Positions 2-19,817 of a DNA stretch of 20,810 bases are shown piece by piece (the first letter of the stretch is position 1; the number at the start of each line of letters is the position of its first letter). The notes below the pieces were generated by a model, which made no database searches, had not been told where the DNA came from, and saw nothing but the letters and a program-made list of their open reading frames with translations. The stretch comes from a virus, in the IMG/VR virus record IMGVR_UViG_3300031566_000453, positions 1 through 20,810 of that record. One strand, written 5' to 3'. The translations under genes and the position numbers were made by a program.

Positions 2-319
2 CAGGAAATATACACAAATATATATGTAGGTGATGCGATTGACATCCTACCGAACTTAGATCATTATAACTTTATAATTGCTTCCGATATTTTGGAACAT
101 ATGAATGGTGAAACTGGTACAAAATTTCTTGACCTTATAGTAGATAAATGTGATCATGCTTTTATAGTACAGCCAATCAAAGTTCTCCCTCAAGGCTCTG
201 TTTATGGTAATGTTGCCGAGACACATGTTTATGGGTGGAATGCACAGGAGCTCGAGCTATACGGTACCGTGACCGTGGCAGGAGGAGCTTACATACTTGA
301 AATTAACAACATCCGTTGA
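2..319 (+). CDS. Class I SAM-dependent methyltransferase-like protein, C-terminal part (5' end outside window)
   Basis: The frame is open from the first bases of the window to a TGA at 317-319, so this is the end of a longer gene. The visible 105 or so residues carry a block like motifs II-III of Rossmann methyltransferases: a GDAIDILPNL stretch, then FIIASDILEHM, which resembles the D-x-L/I-E-H signature after the fourth strand of many class I enzymes acting on small molecules or sugars. The SAM-binding glycine loop would lie upstream of the window, so the substrate cannot be inferred. Two sugar-nucleotide genes lie about 2 kb downstream, which makes a sugar methyltransferase possible, but this is only inference. 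The 3' end is overlapped by the next gene, an HNH nuclease, by 23 nt. Confidence 0.65.
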   Translation, partial: QEIYTNIYVGDAIDILPNLDHYNFIIASDILEHMNGETGTKFLDLIVDKCDHAFIVQPIKVLPQGSVYGNVAETHVYGWNAQELELYGTVTVAGGAYILEINNIR

Positions 320-656
320 TAACCTGTGGAGAGATGTAGTAAAACTTCGTGCTGGTCATCAGTGCGAGCGCTGTGGAAGACGTGAAGAGCTTCATTCCCA
401 CCATATTATCAAACGAACCTATCATCCCACAAGACACCTTTTAGATAATGGTATATGTCTATGTGCAATTTGCCATGGAATAGCCCACGATCAGGAAGAG
501 ATATTTAAGTTGTGGGTCGCCAAGAGGCGCCCATTAAAAGAACTCGAAGAAAAGAAGCACTCCCAAGAAAAGATCGATCTATATTTAGAACAAGCCTACC
601 TACTGGGCGCCAAGTACGCCTACACCAATCAACCAAAATTATCTAACCTATTTTAG
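297..656 (+). CDS. HNH endonuclease (small, homing type)
   Basis: This 119-residue protein has a compact HNH zinc-binding nuclease fold: C23-x2-C26, then HSHHII at residues 33-38 holding the likely catalytic histidine, and C56-x2-C59-H60 with a further histidine at 64. A Lys/Glu-rich helical tail follows. Such proteins cut or nick double-stranded DNA using a single metal and are very common as free-standing homing nucleases in phages. The start is a TTG at 297, chosen because an AGGAGGAG Shine-Dalgarno at 280-287 lies nine bases upstream. The gene begins inside the end of the methyltransferase gene, and its stop is followed by more than 500 bases without a protein gene. Domain call is firm; the homing role is inferred from family habit. 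Confidence 0.85.
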   Translation: MKLTTSVDNLWRDVVKLRAGHQCERCGRREELHSHHIIKRTYHPTRHLLDNGICLCAICHGIAHDQEEIFKLWVAKRRPLKELEEKKHSQEKIDLYLEQAYLLGAKYAYTNQPKLSNLF

Positions 657-1597: not shown

Positions 1598-1926
1598 AAC
1601 GGAATCCCTTGGTCAGGTCTGTTGTAGGCATAATCTGTGGCAAGATCATCAAGGCTTAATTCCTTAACAGGTGGACTTTTACTCATCATTGTGCCTTTTA
1701 AGCGTTTTTGTGAGAACACTACTTTATCCACATATTTTGGTGGGTACCACGAATTGCTAACATGTACACCATCATCCATTATATCACTAATAATCTGTTC
1801 TTTTTCACCCACATATGGCATTGAGGCATGGAATGGCTCTTCATTATTTGGTGATAGATATACCTTAACATCCCACTCTGGTTGCTGATATAAATTAGCT
1901 CTTTGTGCTTTTTCATTTTCATACAT
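1594..1926 (-). CDS. Hypothetical protein following the tRNA
   Basis: This is a 110-residue protein with no recognised domain. It is hydrophilic, with a central DGVHVSNSWYPP segment and a C-terminus rich in Asp, Tyr and Pro. The frame stays open further upstream to 2085, but that stretch is the tRNA gene and its promoter, so the first credible start is the ATG at 1926-1924. That ATG lies only two bases after the last base of the tRNA (1929) and has no Shine-Dalgarno. The mRNA must therefore either include the tRNA or be released from it by 3' processing, leaving a two-base leader. It is coupled to the next gene by a TTGA overlap. Expression from the promoter at 2012-2040 is likely. Confidence 0.55.
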   Translation of the reverse strand: MYENEKAQRANLYQQPEWDVKVYLSPNNEEPFHASMPYVGEKEQIISDIMDDGVHVSNSWYPPKYVDKVVFSQKRLKGTMMSKSPPVKELSLDDLATDYAYNRPDQGIPF

Positions 1927-1928
1927 AG

Positions 1929-2002
1929 TAGCGGGGGCATGATTCGGACATGCGACCTCTGGGATATGAACCCAGCGAGACACCAGACTTCTCCACCCCG
2001 CC
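1929..2002 (-). tRNA. tRNA-Met(CAT), initiator type (fMet)
   Basis: On the minus strand a full 74-nt cloverleaf folds: acceptor GGCGGGG/CCCCGCT, D-stem GAGA/TCTC with GG in the loop, anticodon stem CTGGG/CCCAG with loop TTCATAT (anticodon CAT), five-base variable loop AGGTC, T-stem GCATG/CATGC with loop TCCGAAT, discriminator A. Initiator hallmarks are present: three consecutive G-C pairs at the base of the anticodon stem (29-31/39-41), A11-U24 in the D-stem, and a non-Watson-Crick 1-72 pair (G-U here, C-A in most bacteria). The overall sequence is close to Bacillota initiator tRNA as recalled. CCA is not encoded. C at position 55, where nearly all tRNAs have U, is odd. The adjacent promoter fits transcription start just before G1. 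Confidence 0.93.
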
Positions 2003-2011
2003 ATTTGAAAC

Positions 2012-2040
2012 AACATAACAAATAAATTAATAAAAGTCAA
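2012..2040 (-). promoter_or_regulatory. Sigma-70-type promoter for the tRNA operon
   Basis: Read on the minus strand: -35 TTGACT (2040-2035), 17-bp spacer, -10 TATGTT (2017-2012). Transcription would start about 2005, a few bases before tRNA position 1 at 2002. The -35 box is half of an inverted repeat shared with the divergent plus-strand promoter. Confidence 0.75.
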
Positions 2041-2056
2041 GAAAAAATTTGACTTT
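2033..2056. repeat. 8-bp inverted repeat spanning both divergent -35 boxes
   Basis: AAAGTCAA at 2033-2040 and TTGACTTT at 2049-2056 are perfect inverted copies separated by eight bases. Each arm contains the -35 hexamer of one of the two divergent promoters, so the palindrome may simply be two -35 elements, or an operator that controls both. Confidence 0.7.
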
Positions 2057-2077
2057 CTTAAATTATTGTCATATATT
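2049..2077 (+). promoter_or_regulatory. Sigma-70-type promoter for the 2084-4752 gene cluster
   Basis: -35 TTGACT (2049-2054), 17-bp spacer, -10 TATATT (2072-2077). The predicted start, around 2083-2085, coincides with the ATG at 2084, implying a leaderless or nearly leaderless message for the first gene. Confidence 0.7.
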
Positions 2078-2083
2078 GTCCAC

Positions 2084-2503
2084 ATGAAAAGAAAAAACGA
2101 ATCTATGATGGTACGCCAAGAAGATAAAAATGCCCATGGAGAACTATCTGTAAGTAATTATAGTATGGCATTTAACTTAATAAATGGTAAGGAAAAAATC
2201 AAGTTTAATGTTCCTATGGTTGATTTTAATATCTCTATGTCTTCTGACATGGGGCACACAAGTGCTTATCTGTGTGTTAAATTACCACTTAACGATGTGG
2301 AGAATAAACTCCCAAAGAATTTTGAAATTTCTAAGTTGCTTGATTACGACCTGCAGGCGAGAACAAATGTTTATAGTGGCAAATTTACAATATCACAATT
2401 AGATGTGTCGCAAGAAATGGATGGTGTGTCAAAAATAGGTTCCTTTACAATGCTTCAATATCCAAGTACAAGATATTTAGAAATAACAGGGAGTATACAA
2501 TGA
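2084..2503 (+). CDS. Hypothetical protein, first gene of the sugar-nucleotide cluster
   Basis: This 139-residue protein is not recognised. It starts with a basic MKRKNE segment, followed by alternating hydrophobic/polar stretches (for example FNLINGKEKIKFNVPMVDFNISM) that suggest a beta-rich fold. There are no cysteine motifs, signal peptide or membrane span. The ATG at 2084 is chosen because the promoter just upstream would begin transcription at about that base; a TTG at 2066 is in frame but lies upstream of the predicted transcript. No Shine-Dalgarno is present, so a leaderless start is implied; ATGs at 2105 and 2108 are alternatives. It overlaps the epimerase gene by ATGA, so its function may relate to sugar handling. 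Confidence 0.7.
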   Translation: MKRKNESMMVRQEDKNAHGELSVSNYSMAFNLINGKEKIKFNVPMVDFNISMSSDMGHTSAYLCVKLPLNDVENKLPKNFEISKLLDYDLQARTNVYSGKFTISQLDVSQEMDGVSKIGSFTMLQYPSTRYLEITGSIQ

Positions 2504-3462
2504 AAGTACTTTTATTGGGCGGTGGCGGATATTTAGGAACCCGTCTTACTGGTTTTCTACAAAACCTCAATATGGGCGTTACTGTTGTTGATTTATTTTG
2601 GTTTGGGAATTACCTGAAGAAGAATTCAAGTTATTATCCCCATGATGTTTCAAAAATTGATGACGATTTTTATGAAGACTTCGAGGTGGTTGTATATTTA
2701 GCGGGGTTGTCAAATGATCCTATGGCAGAATTTAGCCCTAAATTAAATTATATACACAATACAGCATATCCAATGATTTGTGCATCTCAGGCAAAGAAGG
2801 CTGGGGTGAAAAAGTTTATTTTCGCCAGCTCGTGTTCTATATATGGCGTGGGTAGAGGATGTGAGGAATGGAGCGAGCCTCACACAGACTATCCATACGG
2901 TATATCTAAATGGCAGGCGGAAAAGGGTCTTGAGCTTTTGAATGATGAAAATTTCCAAGTTATATCACTCCGCAAAGGAACATTGGGTGGTCATTCCGAT
3001 AGGATGAGATTTGACCTTGCCGTTAATAGAATGTTTAAAACTGCCATGGTTGATAAAATAATTACTGTATATGATCCATTGGCGTTTCGCCCATTACTTG
3101 ATATAACTGATGCTGTTCGAGCGTATTCACTGGCTATCTTTGCTCCCCCCGAGATTAGTGGACCCTTTAACATTGTTTCTGAGAATATGTCTGTGATGGA
3201 TCTTGCAATTAGAATGAAACAGTATATGGAAAAAGAGGGTATACAGAGTTCTATTGAGATAAAGAATTTGAAGAAGAAAGAAGTTAGGGATTATAGTGCT
3301 AATTGGGATAAGGCTATGGATCAGCTCGGGTTTACTGGAAACAATACTATCGAAGTAACGATAGATGAGTTGTACACCAACCATAAGCTTAATGCATACT
3401 ATTATGATGATCCAACCACAATAAATATAGAAGTATTTAAAAAGATAGAGGGTAGATTATGA
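2500..3462 (+). CDS. NAD-dependent sugar-nucleotide epimerase/dehydratase (extended SDR)
   Basis: This 320-residue protein is typical in length for extended short-chain dehydrogenases acting on nucleotide sugars. The N-terminal Rossmann loop GGGGYLG is at residues 7-13, an acidic residue that could hold the adenosine ribose follows VTVVD (31), VVYLAGLSNDP is at 64-74, the catalytic serine region SSCSIYG at 110-116, and the catalytic Y133-x3-K137 in YGISK. All key residues are intact. It would act in the cytoplasm on an NDP-sugar as a C4-epimerase, dehydratase or reductase; the exact substrate cannot be read. It overlaps the upstream and downstream genes by 4 nt each and sits before an RmlD-like gene, so the two likely make or modify one sugar precursor. 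Confidence 0.85.
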   Translation: MKVLLLGGGGYLGTRLTGFLQNLNMGVTVVDLFWFGNYLKKNSSYYPHDVSKIDDDFYEDFEVVVYLAGLSNDPMAEFSPKLNYIHNTAYPMICASQAKKAGVKKFIFASSCSIYGVGRGCEEWSEPHTDYPYGISKWQAEKGLELLNDENFQVISLRKGTLGGHSDRMRFDLAVNRMFKTAMVDKIITVYDPLAFRPLLDITDAVRAYSLAIFAPPEISGPFNIVSENMSVMDLAIRMKQYMEKEGIQSSIEIKNLKKKEVRDYSANWDKAMDQLGFTGNNTIEVTIDELYTNHKLNAYYYDDPTTINIEVFKKIEGRL

Positions 3463-4307
3463 AAATTGCCGTCATAGGCGCTAACGGTATGCTTGGTCAA
3501 GATATTGTTGAGTTCTTAACATTAAAACACCAAGAGGTTATGAGCCTTGATCACGGGCAGATTGAAATATCGGATCCAACAACATTTAGTAGTGCGTTTG
3601 GTGATTGGATACCAGAGATAATAATCAATACGGCGTCATGCCCATTTGATGTATGTGAGTCGTCGCCATACCAAGCTTTTATGGTTAACGCTGTTGGTGC
3701 TGGTAATGTTGCTGGATATGCGAAAAGTATAGGGGCGGAAATAATTCACTTTAGTACGGACTATGTATTTGATGGTGTAAAAAACAGTTATTCTAATGAA
3801 GAGGAAAAGCCAGAACCAAGAACTATATTTGGAATTTCTAAACTTGCTGGTGAGCACATGGTTAAGATACATTGTGATAAACATTTCATCATACGTATTG
3901 GTGGGGTTTATGGATTGAACCCTAGTAGGGGAGAGGGAACTAACTTTATTTTAGAGACTATTCGCTTAGCTGGTGAAAGTGATGTTATGGAAGTTCCTTC
4001 TAATTACAAACTTTCCCCAACTTGGACGATGCAAATAGCAAAGAATATGGTTTTTCTTGCTGATACTAAAGAATATGGATTATATCATATGGTGTCGATA
4101 GGTGATTGTACTTACGCTGATTTTGCTAAATTAATAGTAGAAGAGTTAAGATTAAATGTAACAGTTCTTCCAGTTGAATTAGATTTAGGGAACGTTCCTA
4201 AGAATCTTTTGTTAACTAATAAGAACCTTGATGTTATTCGAGTAAATAAAATGGATTTTTGGGATCGTGCGTTGAAACGTTTTCTTCTTAATTTTGAGGC
4301 GCATTGA
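3459..4307 (+). CDS. RmlD-like NDP-sugar reductase (dTDP-4-dehydrorhamnose reductase family)
   Basis: The 282 residues match the RmlD/RfbD family in length and order: Rossmann loop GANGMLG (7-13), IINTASCPFDVCE at about 55-67, FSTDYVFDG (98-106), the catalytic-lysine segment FGISKLAGE (124-132), and RIGGVYG further on. RmlD reduces the 4-keto group in the last step of dTDP-L-rhamnose synthesis. The usual catalytic tyrosine of Y-x3-K is phenylalanine here (F124; K128 retained), which would be expected to impair reduction. The protein may therefore be inactive, use another proton donor, or bind an NDP-sugar for another role. Translationally coupled with the epimerase (ATGA) and with the next gene (TTGA). 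Confidence 0.8.
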   Translation: MKIAVIGANGMLGQDIVEFLTLKHQEVMSLDHGQIEISDPTTFSSAFGDWIPEIIINTASCPFDVCESSPYQAFMVNAVGAGNVAGYAKSIGAEIIHFSTDYVFDGVKNSYSNEEEKPEPRTIFGISKLAGEHMVKIHCDKHFIIRIGGVYGLNPSRGEGTNFILETIRLAGESDVMEVPSNYKLSPTWTMQIAKNMVFLADTKEYGLYHMVSIGDCTYADFAKLIVEELRLNVTVLPVELDLGNVPKNLLLTNKNLDVIRVNKMDFWDRALKRFLLNFEAH

Positions 4308-10614: not shown

Positions 10615-10646
10615 TATACCCCTTTGAACACTAAAAAAGGGGTATA
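10615..10646 (+). promoter_or_regulatory. Perfect 11-bp hairpin sequestering the Shine-Dalgarno of the HNH gene
   Basis: TATACCCCTTT at 10615-10625 pairs perfectly with AAAGGGGTATA at 10636-10646 around a 10-base loop. The AAGGGG ribosome site (10637-10642) of the gene starting at 10651 lies within the 3' arm, so translation from read-through mRNA should be blocked. No T tract follows, so it is not a terminator. Confidence 0.75.
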
Positions 10647-10650
10647 TGCT

Positions 10651-11130
10651 ATGGAAAAAACATGTAGAAAATGTGGGAAGATTAAACTGGCAGAAGAATT
10701 TTATATCCATCTTCAAATGTCTGACGGTAGATTAAATATTTGTAAGGATTGTGTAAAGCAACGTGTAAAAGAAAGGGAGCGCAGACTTAGTAAGGATCCA
10801 GATTGGCTTATTAAAGAACGTACCAGGGGGCGGGATAAATATCATCGCCTATATAAGGGGTTCGGTGCCAATGGAACAACAGAAGCTAAAAAAGCGTGGG
10901 CAAAAAGAAATAGATTAAAAATTGCAGCAGGAAGAATGGCTATAAGGGCTTTAGGTGTTGGAAGATTGATAAAAAAACCATGCGAGGTTTGTGGGGATGA
11001 AAAAGTGGAAATGCATCATGATGACTATTATAAACCAATAGATGTTAGGTGGCTTTGTATTAAACATCATAATGAACATCATGTAATCTTAAGAGAGAAG
11101 GAACTACGTGAAAGAAAAGAAGTGGTCTGA
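10651..11130 (+). CDS. HNH endonuclease with N-terminal zinc finger
   Basis: The 159-residue protein has two zinc units. The N-terminal one is C5-x2-C8...C31-x2-C34 (TCRKCGK, CKDC), followed by a basic helical stretch (VKERERRLSKDP, KERTRGRDKYHR). The C-terminal HNH unit is C111-x2-C114, MHHDDYY (121-127) and C136...H139-H140...H143-H144. This order resembles free-standing phage homing nucleases. The start is ATG 10651 rather than an in-frame TTG at 10624, because the AAGGGG at 10637-10642 is eight bases upstream. That site is trapped in a hairpin. The gene sits between SSB and a coiled-coil gene, overlapping the latter by 23 nt. Confidence 0.85.
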   Translation: MEKTCRKCGKIKLAEEFYIHLQMSDGRLNICKDCVKQRVKERERRLSKDPDWLIKERTRGRDKYHRLYKGFGANGTTEAKKAWAKRNRLKIAAGRMAIRALGVGRLIKKPCEVCGDEKVEMHHDDYYKPIDVRWLCIKHHNEHHVILREKELRERKEVV

Positions 11131-14335: not shown

Positions 14336-16172
14336 TGTAAAACTATCTAGAGAAGAATTGTTTTTATTCCCTCAAATGTATCTATTCTATAGAGCTTATC
14401 CAGTTCTTGCTGTTAGGGATTTGATAGGAATAACCCTATCCACACACCAGAGACTTGATCTAAGATTAAACTGGCAAACTGAGGCTAGAGATATTATAAG
14501 GATCTTTTCCCGTGGTATGTCAAAAACTTTCGGTGAGGCATTGTTTGGGATTCTGTCTTGCGTTTTATATCCTAGATTAAAAGTACTCTCGCTTGGAGCG
14601 GAGGGTTTTCGTCAGGGTAAAATGATACTTGAGGAAGCAGAGAGTATCATAAAGGGTGAGAAGGATGGACAGGAAGATAATGGCTTTGTTAGGGCTATGA
14701 TTAATACTGGTGGTAAGAGACTTTCTGGAAGTTTAGTGCGTAAGGATCCAGACCTTTGGAAGTTAGAATTTCTTAATGGTAGTGTTATTGGCACTGCCCC
14801 CATCGGGGTGAAGGGCGACGCCATTCGTGGTTTTCGTGCCCACATTGTACAAGTAGATGAGAGACGTGGATTAAAGAAAGAAATTAAAGATCGTGTTATA
14901 CGCCCTTTCTCTATTATAGATTACAATGTCATAACACAAAAAGCTGAATACGAAAATAAGAATATTGACTCTGGCACACTTCAATATGAAGAAGATGATT
15001 ATACTAAAGAACTTGAAGAGTACATGAGATTGATAAAAGAGGGTAGTGAGCACCATCTTGTTGTTAAGTTTATTTATCCAGATGCATTCGACGAAGCAAA
15101 AGATGGGGAAGAATATAAATATGAAACGAAGTATTTCAATAAGAAGTTAAAATTTTGGAGTGTTCCTTATGGCATCAAAGTCGATGACCTTGAGGGAGAA
15201 CTTGACAAGATAACTACAGATATTGAATCTTGGCGTAGTGAGCATTTATGTGTACCAATGAGGGCAACTGGAGATTATTATCCATTTGGTTTAATTAATG
15301 CCGTAGCCGAGAAAAGAGTATTTACAGACGAAGAGTATATGGAACTCACTGGACCCGATATGGAAGTGGCTACAATGTATCTACGCCCAAAGTTAAAGTG
15401 TGCGGATCCATGTGTTCTTAGTGTTGATGTTGCCCGTGAACATGATATGACATCTTTCACCGTAACTAGAATGGGTCCATTATCTACGGGGGTTTGGAAT
15501 CCAGTTACACAGGAAGGTAAAACAAAGTTCTGTAATACGATTTGGGCTTACGAAGAGAAGCATATGCAGGATACGGACGCAGCACTAAAGATCTATGAGA
15601 TAATGTCAATGTTTGAAAACATAGTCGTTGTTGCCCTAGATAAAAGAGGTGGTGGTTCGAGTGTTCGTGATCAGCTCTACAGAGTAGTAAAGGAGGGCAT
15701 AGCCCCTGATTTTGAGATTCTGTACGACCCAAATGATGATGATGAGGGGGGCATTGCAACACTTCTTAAGGATAGAAAAGGTCAATTGCTAAGTTTTAAT
15801 AATAGACTCCGCCTTGTTTCATATTCAGATGAGGAAAATACTAAGGTGAACCGTAGTCTTAAAACCGCAATGGGGGAAGAAAGATTTTATTTTTGTGGTG
15901 GTGACGAAAAGGTAGACGAGGAAATACAGATGGTTAGAAATTATGTAAATGTTATACCTCGTCAGTTTAGAATGATTAAGATTAAGCCTACTAAGAATTG
16001 GCTTAACTTTACAACTCCTAATCCAGAGCAAGATTTGAAGGATTTATATTCTTCTACAATCTACGGATGGGGGGAAATAATGCAACTTATTCACGATGAG
16101 GATATCAGTAGGTCATCTGTAGCATCGACTATTGCACCTACTTTTACGCTAAAAATGAGAAGAGAGATATAA
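14328..16172 (+). CDS. terL: Terminase large subunit (packaging ATPase/nuclease)
   Basis: This 614-residue protein has the two-domain terminase layout. The ATPase part has a phage-type Walker A, FSRGMSKTF near residues 60-68, and a Walker B ending QVDERR with D177-E178. The RNase H-like nuclease part begins LSVDVAREHD with the metal-binding D367, followed by VVVALDKRGGGSSVRDQL, typical of the second acidic motif. It pumps DNA into the prohead and cuts concatemers. The ATG at 14328 is chosen over a TTG at 14313 because it gives a natural start (MSDVKLSREEL) and is the nearest to a purine run. The portal gene overlaps its stop by one base. Confidence 0.9.
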   Translation: MSDVKLSREELFLFPQMYLFYRAYPVLAVRDLIGITLSTHQRLDLRLNWQTEARDIIRIFSRGMSKTFGEALFGILSCVLYPRLKVLSLGAEGFRQGKMILEEAESIIKGEKDGQEDNGFVRAMINTGGKRLSGSLVRKDPDLWKLEFLNGSVIGTAPIGVKGDAIRGFRAHIVQVDERRGLKKEIKDRVIRPFSIIDYNVITQKAEYENKNIDSGTLQYEEDDYTKELEEYMRLIKEGSEHHLVVKFIYPDAFDEAKDGEEYKYETKYFNKKLKFWSVPYGIKVDDLEGELDKITTDIESWRSEHLCVPMRATGDYYPFGLINAVAEKRVFTDEEYMELTGPDMEVATMYLRPKLKCADPCVLSVDVAREHDMTSFTVTRMGPLSTGVWNPVTQEGKTKFCNTIWAYEEKHMQDTDAALKIYEIMSMFENIVVVALDKRGGGSSVRDQLYRVVKEGIAPDFEILYDPNDDDEGGIATLLKDRKGQLLSFNNRLRLVSYSDEENTKVNRSLKTAMGEERFYFCGGDEKVDEEIQMVRNYVNVIPRQFRMIKIKPTKNWLNFTTPNPEQDLKDLYSSTIYGWGEIMQLIHDEDISRSSVASTIAPTFTLKMRREI

Positions 16173-17851
16173 TGGCTAAGACTGAGTTGACTAAAGACGA
16201 GCGACTTGATTTATCAAAAAGTATTTACGACAAAGCTAAATCAATGGGTCTTTCGGTTGAGCATAACCCATCTAATTTGGGCGGGCTTTTAACCATTGGA
16301 TCCGATATAAAAAATAAAGCAGCTTCACATATTGAGTGGCAAGTTAATAAAGATGGCAATGTCCACATGGCTGGTACACTTCCTAGCAATACTAGTTCTG
16401 GATATAATCTTCTTGTTGACGCAAAAGACTATGAATCCGATACTATTGAGCGTAAGGATAAAATTCTATTAAGTAGAAAAGCGGTTAGATACGAAGGGAT
16501 TGTAGCAAGTGCAATAGAGGCTTTAGTGGAAGTGCCTACTCTTGGTGGTTGGTATATAAATTGTAAAGATGAAGACCTTAGAAAACTGTGTTACTATTGG
16601 GCTAAATGGTTTAATAGTATGGGCGATAACGGAGCGATCAATTCGGATGAGACAAGAGTACAGACCGTAGGCGGGATTGAATTGTTTTCAATGCACTGTC
16701 TTTGGCAATTATACCAAGATGGCGATTCTGTCGTAACGGAATCGTGGGAACATGCTGTTGTCCCAGAGTTAGGTGGAAAGCGTTTTAATCTTCCAGTACG
16801 TTATATTGATCATGATGTCGCTGAATGTGAAATACCAGAAGCGTTGGCTGCTATGGGTATTGAGGTTATCACTGTGGAAATGGACAGTGATCTTCAGGCT
16901 GTTGTCCAGGGTAGCGGTGATCTTGATGATAATCAGAAGCTTTTACTCAAGACCATTCCGCCAGAGATGTTAAAAAAAATGAAAGAAAGTGGCGAAACAA
17001 AATTTATTCTTCCATCTGAGTTTACAACTCATTTTAGCCGTAAAAACAACGAAAGAGATGCTTGGGGAAATCCATTTACAATTAAAGCTTTTCCGTCATT
17101 AGCCTTTAAGCATAGGCTTCGTGCCCTAGATAATGCAACGATCGACGGATTAATTCAGCGGGTGTGGATTGTCAAGCTGGGAATGGAAAATGAACAGCAT
17201 CCATTAGCTGTTCCAGATGATAGCAGGGTTCTTTTGGCCGTTAGCGCTTTCAGACAATTACAGACACAGAATTTTTTGATTTGGGGCGGGCAAGACCTAA
17301 CTACCGAAGAATTTGGCAGTTCCCAAAACAATATTTTAAGTCTTAATGACAGATACCAACAAGCCGATAGAGACATCCTTGCCTCGTTAGCTGTACCAAG
17401 AGTGCTTATAGATGGTGAGGGTGTTGGTAAGGGAATTGAATCATACGCCAAAACAATTGCTCAAATGGAGCGGTATCAGATTATGATTGGGCGTTGGATT
17501 GAACATAAACTTCGTCAGATAGCCGAGGAAAATAATTTCAAAGATGAGTTTCCAACATTTCATTGGAATTTTCTTAAAATGTCTGATCAACAGAAAGCTA
17601 AGAATATTGTTAATAAGATGTATGAGAATGGTGGACTTGGTATTAGAGCTTATCTGAATATGTCAGGTGTTGCCGCCGATGAAGTTATTAAAGAGGCCCA
17701 AGAGGAAAAGGAAAGCGGATTAAAGGATACTTTGCCATTGCCAAATATTCCATTTACAAAACAGGATGACCGTGAAGGTGTTCCTGACGGGGATGGGGAT
17801 AATCCTGATTCTAAAAAGCCAGATCCAGATTCTAATAGGGATACAGAATGA
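16172..17851 (+). CDS. Portal protein
   Basis: The 559-residue protein follows the terminase by a one-base overlap and has the size and features of phage portals. There is an N-terminal acidic/basic segment, a central region with DSVVTESWEHAVV and PVRYIDHD, a long helix region (FKHRLRALDNATIDGLIQRVWIVK in the crown/stem area), the DRYQQADRDILASLAVPRVLI segment (parts: DRYQQADRDIL, VPRVLIDGEG) that resembles the conserved portal stretch before the C-terminus, and a hydrophilic Asp/Pro/Lys-rich tail. It forms the dodecameric ring through which DNA passes. The ATGA junction at 17848-17851 joins it to the zinc-finger HNH gene. Specific family not assigned. Confidence 0.8.
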   Translation: MAKTELTKDERLDLSKSIYDKAKSMGLSVEHNPSNLGGLLTIGSDIKNKAASHIEWQVNKDGNVHMAGTLPSNTSSGYNLLVDAKDYESDTIERKDKILLSRKAVRYEGIVASAIEALVEVPTLGGWYINCKDEDLRKLCYYWAKWFNSMGDNGAINSDETRVQTVGGIELFSMHCLWQLYQDGDSVVTESWEHAVVPELGGKRFNLPVRYIDHDVAECEIPEALAAMGIEVITVEMDSDLQAVVQGSGDLDDNQKLLLKTIPPEMLKKMKESGETKFILPSEFTTHFSRKNNERDAWGNPFTIKAFPSLAFKHRLRALDNATIDGLIQRVWIVKLGMENEQHPLAVPDDSRVLLAVSAFRQLQTQNFLIWGGQDLTTEEFGSSQNNILSLNDRYQQADRDILASLAVPRVLIDGEGVGKGIESYAKTIAQMERYQIMIGRWIEHKLRQIAEENNFKDEFPTFHWNFLKMSDQQKAKNIVNKMYENGGLGIRAYLNMSGVAADEVIKEAQEEKESGLKDTLPLPNIPFTKQDDREGVPDGDGDNPDSKKPDPDSNRDTE

Positions 17852-18987
17852 TAGAAGCAACCTGTCAACAATGTAATAAAAAATTTGGAACTTATTCATC
17901 TTTGATAGCAAGGGGTAAGGGTAAATATTGTTCTAGAAAATGTTTTGATATTGGAAGAATAAATTCTATAGAAAGAATTTGTAAAGCTTGTAACAAAAAA
18001 TTTATGATTTGGCCTAGCCGATTAAATGTTGATGGTGGTCATTATTGTTCTATAGAATGTTATCATCCTAATAAAAGTTTTATGAAAAAATGTAAAACTT
18101 GTGGTAAAAAATTTACAGCTTGGGCATCTGTTATAAAAAAGGGCGGTGGTAAATACTGTTCTAAAAAATGTATGGGCTTGGGTTATGATAAAAAAATTTC
18201 AATAATGTGTGAACATTGTGGTAAAAAATTTAAAGCATCTCAATCTCGTATAAATAGGGGTGGGGTTAAATATTGTTCTGTTAAATGCAGAAGTGAAAAT
18301 AATATAGTGAATATTGAATGTTTGGTTTGTAAGAAAATTTTTAATATTCCTTTAAGTGTGAAAAAAAGGGGATCGGGCATTTACTGTTCAATGAAATGCA
18401 TGTCTATTGGTTATGTAAAAAAAGTAAAAGTAAAATGTAAAGTTTGTGATGATATATTTGAAACAATACCAAGTAAGTTATTACTTGGATATGGAAAATA
18501 TTGTTCTCAAGATTGTATGGGTATTGGAAGAAGAACTTCTGTAGAAAAAGAATGTCTGCATTGTGGTAAAAAGTTTATGGTTACCCCATATAAAATAAAA
18601 AGAGGTTGTGGAAAATATTGTTCACAAAAATGCTATTTTGACAGTGGTTATCTTGTTGAAAAGGAATGTAAAACTTGTGGTAAAAAATTTAAAGCATCTC
18701 AATCTCAGATTAAAAGAGGTTGGGGTTTATATTGTTCCCGAGAGTGTAGTGGTAAAGGCAGAACTATTCATACAAGTGGACAAAGATTCCTTGATACCCA
18801 AAGAAAAAAAGCTAGAAAATTAGCCTTAAAAACATTTAAACCAATATGTGTTGTTTGTGGATTACCAGAAGATCATGTTCATCATAAAAATTGCAATCCA
18901 GCGGACAATAATTTAAGCAACTTGGAATTTAGGTGTATACCGTGCCATATAGACATTCACAGAGAAATCAGAGAGAGGGCTGGGTGA
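17848..18987 (+). CDS. HNH endonuclease with eight tandem C4 zinc fingers
   Basis: The 379-residue protein carries eight consecutive zinc units, each exactly C-x2-C-x18-C-x3-C, with first cysteines at residues 6, 45, 82, 121, 158, 197, 236 and 274. The common pattern is CxxCGKKF, a basic/Ser segment, a Gly-rich turn, and YCSxxC, joined by 10-12-residue linkers often containing GxG. A basic linker (QRKKARKLALK) leads to an HNH domain: C334-x2-C337, HVHHKN (343-348), NNLSNLEFRC and C363-x2-C366-H367. Read from family habit, the fingers bind DNA and HNH cuts or nicks. The gene overlaps the portal by ATGA, is markedly richer in A/T than its neighbours, and separates portal from amidase, which suggests a mobile insertion. 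Confidence 0.9.
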   Translation: MIEATCQQCNKKFGTYSSLIARGKGKYCSRKCFDIGRINSIERICKACNKKFMIWPSRLNVDGGHYCSIECYHPNKSFMKKCKTCGKKFTAWASVIKKGGGKYCSKKCMGLGYDKKISIMCEHCGKKFKASQSRINRGGVKYCSVKCRSENNIVNIECLVCKKIFNIPLSVKKRGSGIYCSMKCMSIGYVKKVKVKCKVCDDIFETIPSKLLLGYGKYCSQDCMGIGRRTSVEKECLHCGKKFMVTPYKIKRGCGKYCSQKCYFDSGYLVEKECKTCGKKFKASQSQIKRGWGLYCSRECSGKGRTIHTSGQRFLDTQRKKARKLALKTFKPICVVCGLPEDHVHHKNCNPADNNLSNLEFRCIPCHIDIHREIRERAG

Positions 18988-18991
18988 TCGT

Positions 18992-19549
18992 ATGAAGCTA
19001 CGCATTCTAATTGACCCTGGCCACGGCGGAAAAGATAGTGGGGCCGTAGGTCCAGCAGGCACTTTAGAAAAAGATCTTAATCTCATATATTCTAAAAAAA
19101 TATATAGCATTCTCGATGCAAATCCCACATTCGACCCATCTCTTACCAGAGATGACGACATCTACATAAGGTTGTGCGACAGGGCGACCAAGGCAATTAC
19201 TGAAAAAGCGCATATATTCGTTAGCATTCATTGTAATGCCAGCGTATCACAGAAACCAAAAGATATGCAGACATATTATTACAATGCAAAGAAAGACAAG
19301 CCTTTAGCACAGGCAATATTTAGTACGACAGATAAGGTTGATAATGTTACTTCCAAGTTTAGCCGTGTGATATTCGGCAATTTCTACGTTCTCAGGAGAT
19401 TGAAGGATAGCAACATACCAGCGTGTCTTGTTGAAGTAGCATTTTTATCAAACCCAAACGACGAAATTTTATTAAACAATCAGGAATTCCAGAAAGAATT
19501 TTGCCAAGAAGTGGTAAAAGGCATACGGGCTTTTATTTTATTGAGTTAA
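18992..19549 (+). CDS. N-acetylmuramoyl-L-alanine amidase (Amidase_3)
   Basis: This 185-residue protein is a bare zinc amidase of the Amidase_3 family: IDPGHGG with H11, LEKDLNL with E26, FVSIHCNA with H80, and the catalytic glutamate in CLVEVAFLSN (E148). It cleaves the bond between N-acetylmuramic acid and L-alanine in peptidoglycan. There is no signal peptide, transmembrane span or cell-wall-binding domain, so release would need a holin, or the protein acts from the virion. It sits among head genes rather than in a lysis cassette. GGGTGAT, complementary to the 16S rRNA 3' end, lies three bases before the ATG. Confidence 0.9.
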   Translation: MKLRILIDPGHGGKDSGAVGPAGTLEKDLNLIYSKKIYSILDANPTFDPSLTRDDDIYIRLCDRATKAITEKAHIFVSIHCNASVSQKPKDMQTYYYNAKKDKPLAQAIFSTTDKVDNVTSKFSRVIFGNFYVLRRLKDSNIPACLVEVAFLSNPNDEILLNNQEFQKEFCQEVVKGIRAFILLS

Positions 19550-19577: not shown

Positions 19578-19817
19578 ATGAGTAACAAACTATATCCAAC
19601 TGGTAAAACGGTGACGCTTGACTACGCCGACAAGTTGAATGTCGCTGATGCGAATGATAAAGACCAGATTAAAACGATCACTATTTTAGATCTAATAACT
19701 AAACTTGGTCTGACCACTAGCACATCGACAAGCTCTAGTACTTCAACAACGAGCTCTAGTACTACAAGTACTAGTTCTAGTACAACAAGTTCTAGTACTA
19801 CAAGTACAACGTCGTAA
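19578..19817 (+). CDS. Small protein with long Ser/Thr-repeat tail
   Basis: The 79-residue protein has a short folded part (LYPTGKTVTLDYADKLN, KTITILDLITKLGL) and then about 34 residues made only of Ser and Thr. The tail is encoded by imperfect 15-24-bp DNA repeats. AAGAGGAG ten bases before the ATG gives a strong start. It is the last gene before a terminator, in the head module, so a small virion or decoration protein is likely. A shorter tail of the same composition ends the protein at 4304-4603. No enzyme motif is seen; the function is unknown. Confidence 0.75.
   Translation: MSNKLYPTGKTVTLDYADKLNVADANDKDQIKTITILDLITKLGLTTSTSTSSSTSTTSSSTTSTSSSTTSSSTTSTTS
19731..19811 (+). repeat. Imperfect tandem repeats encoding a Ser/Thr tail
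   Basis: Four degenerate units each beginning AGCTCTAGTAC or AGTTCTAGTAC, at 19731, 19752, 19773 and 19788, of 21, 21, 15 and 24 bp. They keep the reading frame and give only Ser/Thr codons. The unit lengths (multiples of three) suggest slippage-driven length variation. Confidence 0.75.

Follow-up and report, generated by a model that had tools for sequence, protein, structure and literature searches.

A putative free-standing HNH homing endonuclease gene with eight zinc fingers at the portal-amidase boundary of a tailed phage

The window (the whole stretch of DNA analysed, 20,810 nucleotides from virus record IMGVR_UViG_3300031566_000453) carries an HNH nuclease gene with eight N-terminal C4 fingers which, judging from sequence comparison, is very probably a free-standing homing endonuclease gene lying where portal and amidase adjoin in a tailed phage. 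Hallmarks of homing found here are the HNH residues, an empty orthologous site in one relative and a tract of divergence flanking the gene in two others. The element is of a known kind; its array is unusually long. The features concerned are as follows.

16172..17851, + strand: portal protein gene; the endonuclease ATG lies across its TGA stop (ATGA)
17848..18987, + strand: gene for a 379-aa HNH endonuclease with eight C4 fingers in its N-terminal part (ORF call, PHROG_1271 match, motif count)
17863..17943, + strand: finger 1, aa 6-32 (motif match)
17980..18060, + strand: finger 2, aa 45-71 (motif match)
18091..18171, + strand: finger 3, aa 82-108 (motif match)
18208..18288, + strand: finger 4, aa 121-147 (motif match)
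18319..18399, + strand: finger 5, aa 158-184 (motif match)
18436..18516, + strand: finger 6, aa 197-223 (motif match)
18553..18633, + strand: finger 7, aa 236-262, penultimate (motif match)
18667..18747, + strand: finger 8, aa 274-300 (motif match)
18799..18984, + strand: HNH nuclease domain, aa 318-379, in which C334, C337, C363 and C366 make up a separate C4 zinc site (profile match, conserved residues)
18992..19549, + strand: N-acetylmuramoyl-L-alanine amidase gene (Amidase_3); start 4 bp past the endonuclease stop

The finger array and the nuclease domain

The open frame at 17848-18987 begins with ATG and runs for 379 codons without a stop. The motif count confirmed the eight exact C-x2-C-x18-C-x3-C units, repeated every 37-39 residues, that the initial annotation had described: units start at residues 6, 45, 82, 121, 158, 197, 236 and 274 (start-to-start distances 39, 37, 39, 37, 39, 39, 38) and are joined by linkers of 10-12 residues. 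Against these eight units, one of 10,000 residue shuffles of the protein reached two. The variation between cysteines noted at the same time falls mainly at positions 3, 9-12, 14, 19, 25 and 28-30 (numbered from the first Cys); close to constant are [G]-K-K-F behind the second Cys, S13, G18, G20 and the K-Y-C-S ahead of the third. In composition the array is strongly basic (66 K+R vs 19 D+E, pI 9.6). Finger-to-finger DNA identity is 42-62/81, from which it follows that most of the duplications are old, and since all 32 finger cysteines are nonetheless intact, these appear to be held by selection. Fingers 4 and 8 have an exact 22-nt stretch in common.

Within the HNH domain, C334/C337, H345-H346, N358, C363/C366-H367 and H371 are all intact; H345/H346 and N358 are invariant, and H367 nearly so, in the 10 relatives compared, and the catalytic H...N...H is present. 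The protein matches PHROG_1271 (HNH endonuclease) at E=1.5e-46, with aa 230-377 aligned to positions 174-322 of the 361-position profile and five stretches matching. Together with the HNH residues and the motif count, this match bears out the original description, a modular array of fingers joined to an HNH nuclease. Members of the PHROG_1271 family likewise have a finger array followed by HNH; our search found no functional study of this catalogued family. The Pfam match to HNH_3 (E=0.003) falls below the cut-off, and the zinc-finger models of Pfam all stay below theirs in the protein. The full-length sequence had no match in a search of the PDB, and a strict tblastn search (E<=1e-5) of annotated phages found nothing, the informative matches there having weak E-values only.

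An AF2 model of the full-length protein (mean pLDDT 74, pTM 0.26) consists of eight beads in no fixed relative arrangement, each unit being formed of two strands and then a C-terminal helix; finger 2 is the least well formed. The predicted modules are credible, their overall arrangement is not. With a model of two fingers plus HNH (pLDDT 79.8, pTM 0.37), Foldseek gave 36 viral matches in BFVD at E<=1e-3, those with names being mostly HNH proteins of phages, besides a small number of WhiB and zinc-finger entries; the PDB yielded nothing at E<=1e-3.

The portal-amidase junction in relatives

A portal-protein search located four relatives (L015, L016, L017 and L018). The L018 record stops within portal. 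Only four junctions, occupied or empty, were located in total. In L016, whose portal is 78% identical to that of the window, the junction holds a 3-finger HNH protein; in L015 (portal 79% identical) it holds a 2-finger HNH protein. In L017 (67%) the junction is empty, with the portal stop and the amidase start overlapping as TAATG, and the whole 38-kb L017 record has no match to the window protein. The empty site bears out the proposal that the gene was inserted between portal and amidase. Because the HNH parts of the window, L015 and L016 proteins are 52-66% identical in amino acid sequence, the most natural reading of the 8-, 3- and 2-finger genes is that they are alleles of a single gene. 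The search for homologues with different finger numbers that had been put forward as a check found 3 or 2 fingers, or no gene, at the junction where the window has 8. Loss of cysteines in homologues, the outcome that was to count against the initial reading, was not seen: the relatives' fingers retain all four and differ in number, as scored by a detection that demanded all four cysteines and that degenerate fingers would escape.

The 2-finger allele consists of just the two HNH-adjacent fingers and the HNH domain, which suggests that two fingers suffice at the portal-amidase site. In the 3-finger allele, the penultimate finger is the one that finger 7 of the window protein most resembles (19/33); beyond this penultimate finger, no orthology of single fingers could be established across alleles. 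Corresponding fingers of different alleles have 0-3/10 variable positions in common. Both the number and the sequence of the fingers change much more quickly across alleles than portal does.

L015 and L016 are 92% identical over 4.2 kb upstream, but in the final 190 bp of portal identity is 63% (353/4198 mismatches vs 68/185; Fisher p=7e-25). The divergence persists through the endonuclease gene and the first ~40 bp of amidase; from there identity is ~80-85%, reaching ~90% and above by ~180 bp. The portal tail diverges faster than the remainder in every pair, the ratio of JC distances (190-bp tail vs rest) being 5.7 for L015-L016 and 1.2-1.9 for the other pairs. Ordinary tail divergence would account for part of the L015-L016 patch, but not for the fivefold excess. 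Over the last 80 bp of portal, L015 is 85% and L016 60% identical to the window; a shared source for the portal ends of window and L015 is suggested, the window-L015 rise alone giving p=0.056. Replacement of a gene together with its flanks is the trace expected of homing, and the patch would fit gene conversion centred on the nuclease gene.

The initial annotation took the strong A/T bias and the insertion as signs of recent transfer. The bias is real (GC 30.4% and GC3 16.8%, vs 39.9% and 31.6% in the portal gene) and transfer is backed by the conversion-like patch. The shorter alleles in the relatives are likewise A/T-rich (GC3 21.5-26.5%), so the bias is a trait of the gene lineage and gives no date for the insertion in the window; composition as sole proof of recent import was rejected for this reason. 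An intron-borne homing gene was also considered and rejected: no Rfam family, group I introns included, reaches its gathering score in the window, and the portal and amidase frames are complete on each side.

Some minor observations concern the genes downstream. The amidase gene after the 2-finger gene (L015:7141-7704) has an in-frame stop near its start, arising through a short insertion (GH*LGG), which could reflect either decay or an assembly error. The one after the 3-finger gene (L016:7251) has ATT where ATG is usual and begins before the endonuclease gene has ended. Amidase is followed, in L015, L016 and L017 as in the window (19578-19817, +), by a gene for a short protein with a Thr/Ser-rich low-complexity tail.

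A finger family shared by phage nucleases

The finger was surveyed with a degenerate DNA pattern over viral contigs, with the addition of loci from earlier searches. In this sample, which is biased to 27-residue fingers and includes some frames cut by contig ends, at least 134 viral ORFs bear the finger in 1-8 copies each. Among the matches listed, 46 ORFs have one copy, 39 two, 22 three, 19 four, four five and three seven, the window array being the longest with eight; the commonest linker among them is 12 residues. A stricter DNA pattern found 4 loci, and a genome-contig scan for finger arrays three distant arrays only. Arrays are joined to HNH (PF01844, L195), to HNH_3-like domains (L140, L015; below cut-off), to DUF559/Vsr-like nucleases in L184, L170 and L118 (DUF559 above cut-off) and to a DUF1064-like nuclease (L125, just below cut-off). 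This distribution over several types of nuclease is what would be expected of an interchangeable DNA-binding module.

Other arrangements were encountered in the survey. One viral contig (L108) has a 4-finger open frame (2-577, to the locus end) near a 7-finger HNH-like protein (1730-3004). In L174:2831 the order is reversed, HNH preceding three fingers, so that the array may sit on either side of the nuclease. The five-finger arrays of L214 and L138 are acidic (pI 5.7 and 6.6, other long arrays having 9.2-10.0) and not obviously suited to DNA binding.

The finger motif, C-x2-C-G ... [YF]-C-S-x2-C, with its second half at the start of a helix and a hairpin between, has the look of a treble clef. 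The TRASH group of treble clefs includes YacG, FCS, MYND and L24 (PMC4999995). One relative alone, L184, scores above the zf-FCS cut-off (22.6 vs 22.4), with YacG below cut-off, and a PDB search with the finger profile gave weak FCS and L24e matches. On account of the motif, the predicted hairpin-helix units, the L184 score and these weak matches, the finger, that of the window protein included, is likely to belong near the TRASH/FCS/YacG treble clefs. It shares motif and hairpin-then-helix order with the TRASH fingers (FCS/MYM, YacG, MYND, L24e), but the window protein lies below every Pfam zinc-finger cut-off. No description of tandem TRASH-type arrays this long was found in the open-licence literature. 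The C2H2 proteins that dominate the PDB matches of the finger profile were rejected as homologues, the likeness covering the first knuckle, KCxxCGKxF, alone. In the first 19 positions of finger profile A4 this knuckle and its counterpart in C2H2 fingers (ZFP568, Aart) are almost the same, a likeness that is probably convergent.

Possible roles of the array and of the gene

The initial annotation had suggested that each finger might read a few bases, so that the eight together could specify a long target as in a natural zinc-finger nuclease. The regularity of the units, constant at the core and variable at certain positions, fits such a reading, as do linkers close in length to the commonest of the family and an array length that shifts by whole units; a structure search also loosely pairs the model with DNA-bound C2H2 arrays (CTCF). 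However, the CTCF and TFIIIA Foldseek matches of the 8-finger model were rejected as reflecting repetition only (TM 0.13-0.15 by query length), and likeness to C2H2 in sequence stops at the first knuckle. As the window finger resembles TRASH/FCS/YacG treble clefs, not C2H2 fingers, the C2H2 recognition code is not transferable to it. Moreover, one junction hosts alleles spanning a fourfold range of finger number. A code would predict shared contact residues at one site, and the few variable positions in common run against it; the junction flanks having themselves diverged, this weakens the idea rather than excluding it. The zinc finger of T4 I-TevI is a distance determinant (PMC2988022), so a finger of a homing enzyme need not read bases. 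The evidence currently leans against a natural zinc-finger nuclease, which we consider decidedly unlikely. A modular DNA-binding array is reasonable and a per-finger code speculative; from its sequence, the eight-finger array looks like a fast-changing grip on DNA, not a proven base-by-base reader. It is unlikely, too, that phages own a general plug-in targeting module, a tandem TRASH-like array placed on several unrelated nucleases, whose fast change in unit number would retarget homing by length or composition. If so, the 8-, 3- and 2-finger alleles would be a natural zinc-finger-nuclease-like series evolved apart from C2H2.

Other readings concern the gene as a whole. That it decays as an inactive homing gene, its array grown by neutral repeat slippage, is very improbable: the DNA is A/T-rich and internally repetitive, and damage lies beside the gene in a relative (the L015 amidase stop codon), but the 379 codons contain no stop and preserve 32/32 finger cysteines as well as every HNH residue, and the age of the duplications implies that selection has kept the cysteines. 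Some TRASH-type treble clefs bind no DNA, examples being the gyrase-binding YacG and the ribosomal protein L24 (PMC4999995), and a YacG-gyrase structure (4tma) is among the Foldseek matches; yet the empty site, the allelic series and the conversion-like patch are traits of homing genes and the finger is repeatedly joined to DNA nucleases of unrelated fold, making it highly improbable that the array binds RNA, protein or structured DNA and that the gene is not a homing element. A packaging-associated HNH protein serving the terminase/portal module, as HK97 gp74, would suit a gene within two genes of a probable terminase large subunit, and terminase-adjacent HNH proteins can act in packaging (PMC10448857). 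This we regard as extremely improbable for a gene missing from L017, which retains portal, amidase and neighbours, and evolving so much faster than portal in finger number and sequence. A core function is better fitted by a separate small HNH gene (window 297-653, +; PF01844 above cut-off), which each of the four relatives keeps (65-80% identity) and which looks like a core gene, not a mobile one. The G004 copy of this small gene has one internal stop.

Homing endonucleases use small DNA-binding beads. The homing endonuclease reading of the window gene finds parallels in T4 mobA-E, free-standing HNH homing endonucleases at gene boundaries near essential genes (PMC2988022), and in ICP1 gp28, gp80 and gp179, HNH_3 and zinc-finger genes that also lie near essential genes (PMC10448857). 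These share with the window protein an HNH domain plus a separate DNA-binding region (in ICP1 a zinc finger), but their nuclease is N-terminal and ICP1 has one zinc-finger domain, whereas the window array is N-terminal and long. Several T4 mob/seg cassettes are without a promoter of their own (PMC2988022), like the window gene, which has no intergenic DNA of its own upstream, its start lying on the portal stop. The ShiLan-domain HNH of mycobacteriophage methylases, finger-flanked and reported as homing from its patchy distribution (PMC11855218), has the same finger motif plus HNH; it differs in having one finger on each side of HNH and in lying out of frame inside the methylase gene. I-TevI likewise contains a zinc module, but this is a single linker finger that serves a GIY-YIG enzyme as a distance ruler (PMC2988022). 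In open-licence papers we found no description of finger arrays in phage homing enzymes.

We infer DNA binding, cleavage, active homing and a role for the extra fingers, in the following course of events. In a co-infected cell the protein would meet a phage whose junction is empty or different; the string of treble-clef modules would grip DNA near the portal 3′ end, the HNH domain would nick or cut nearby, and repair from the carrier phage would copy the gene into the recipient along with flanking DNA of a few hundred bp. That the array may hold the enzyme near the portal 3′ end while HNH nicks is drawn from the mycobacteriophage HNH case and the anatomy of the protein. The minimal unit would apparently be the two HNH-adjacent fingers with the HNH domain; extra fingers may come and go by repeat duplication, and probably give non-specific or weakly specific affinity. 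The interest of the locus lies in a long array of a finger that no Pfam model recognises in the window protein and on whose long arrays no paper was found. Its 0/2/3/8-finger series, at one locus with known neighbours, makes the role of the fingers testable and lets one ask what added fingers bring: a longer target, tighter binding or no effect. In the first case this would be a natural modular nuclease on a non-C2H2 fold.

Elsewhere in the window, an endonuclease/Endo VII-like gene (10624-11127, +; PHROG_2340) has a 60% match in the L015 phage, no match in the L016 and L018 records and only a weak partial match in that of L017; it is possibly a second mobile nuclease. Two sugar-nucleotide epimerase/RmlD-like genes lie at 2500-4307 (+) of this phage contig.
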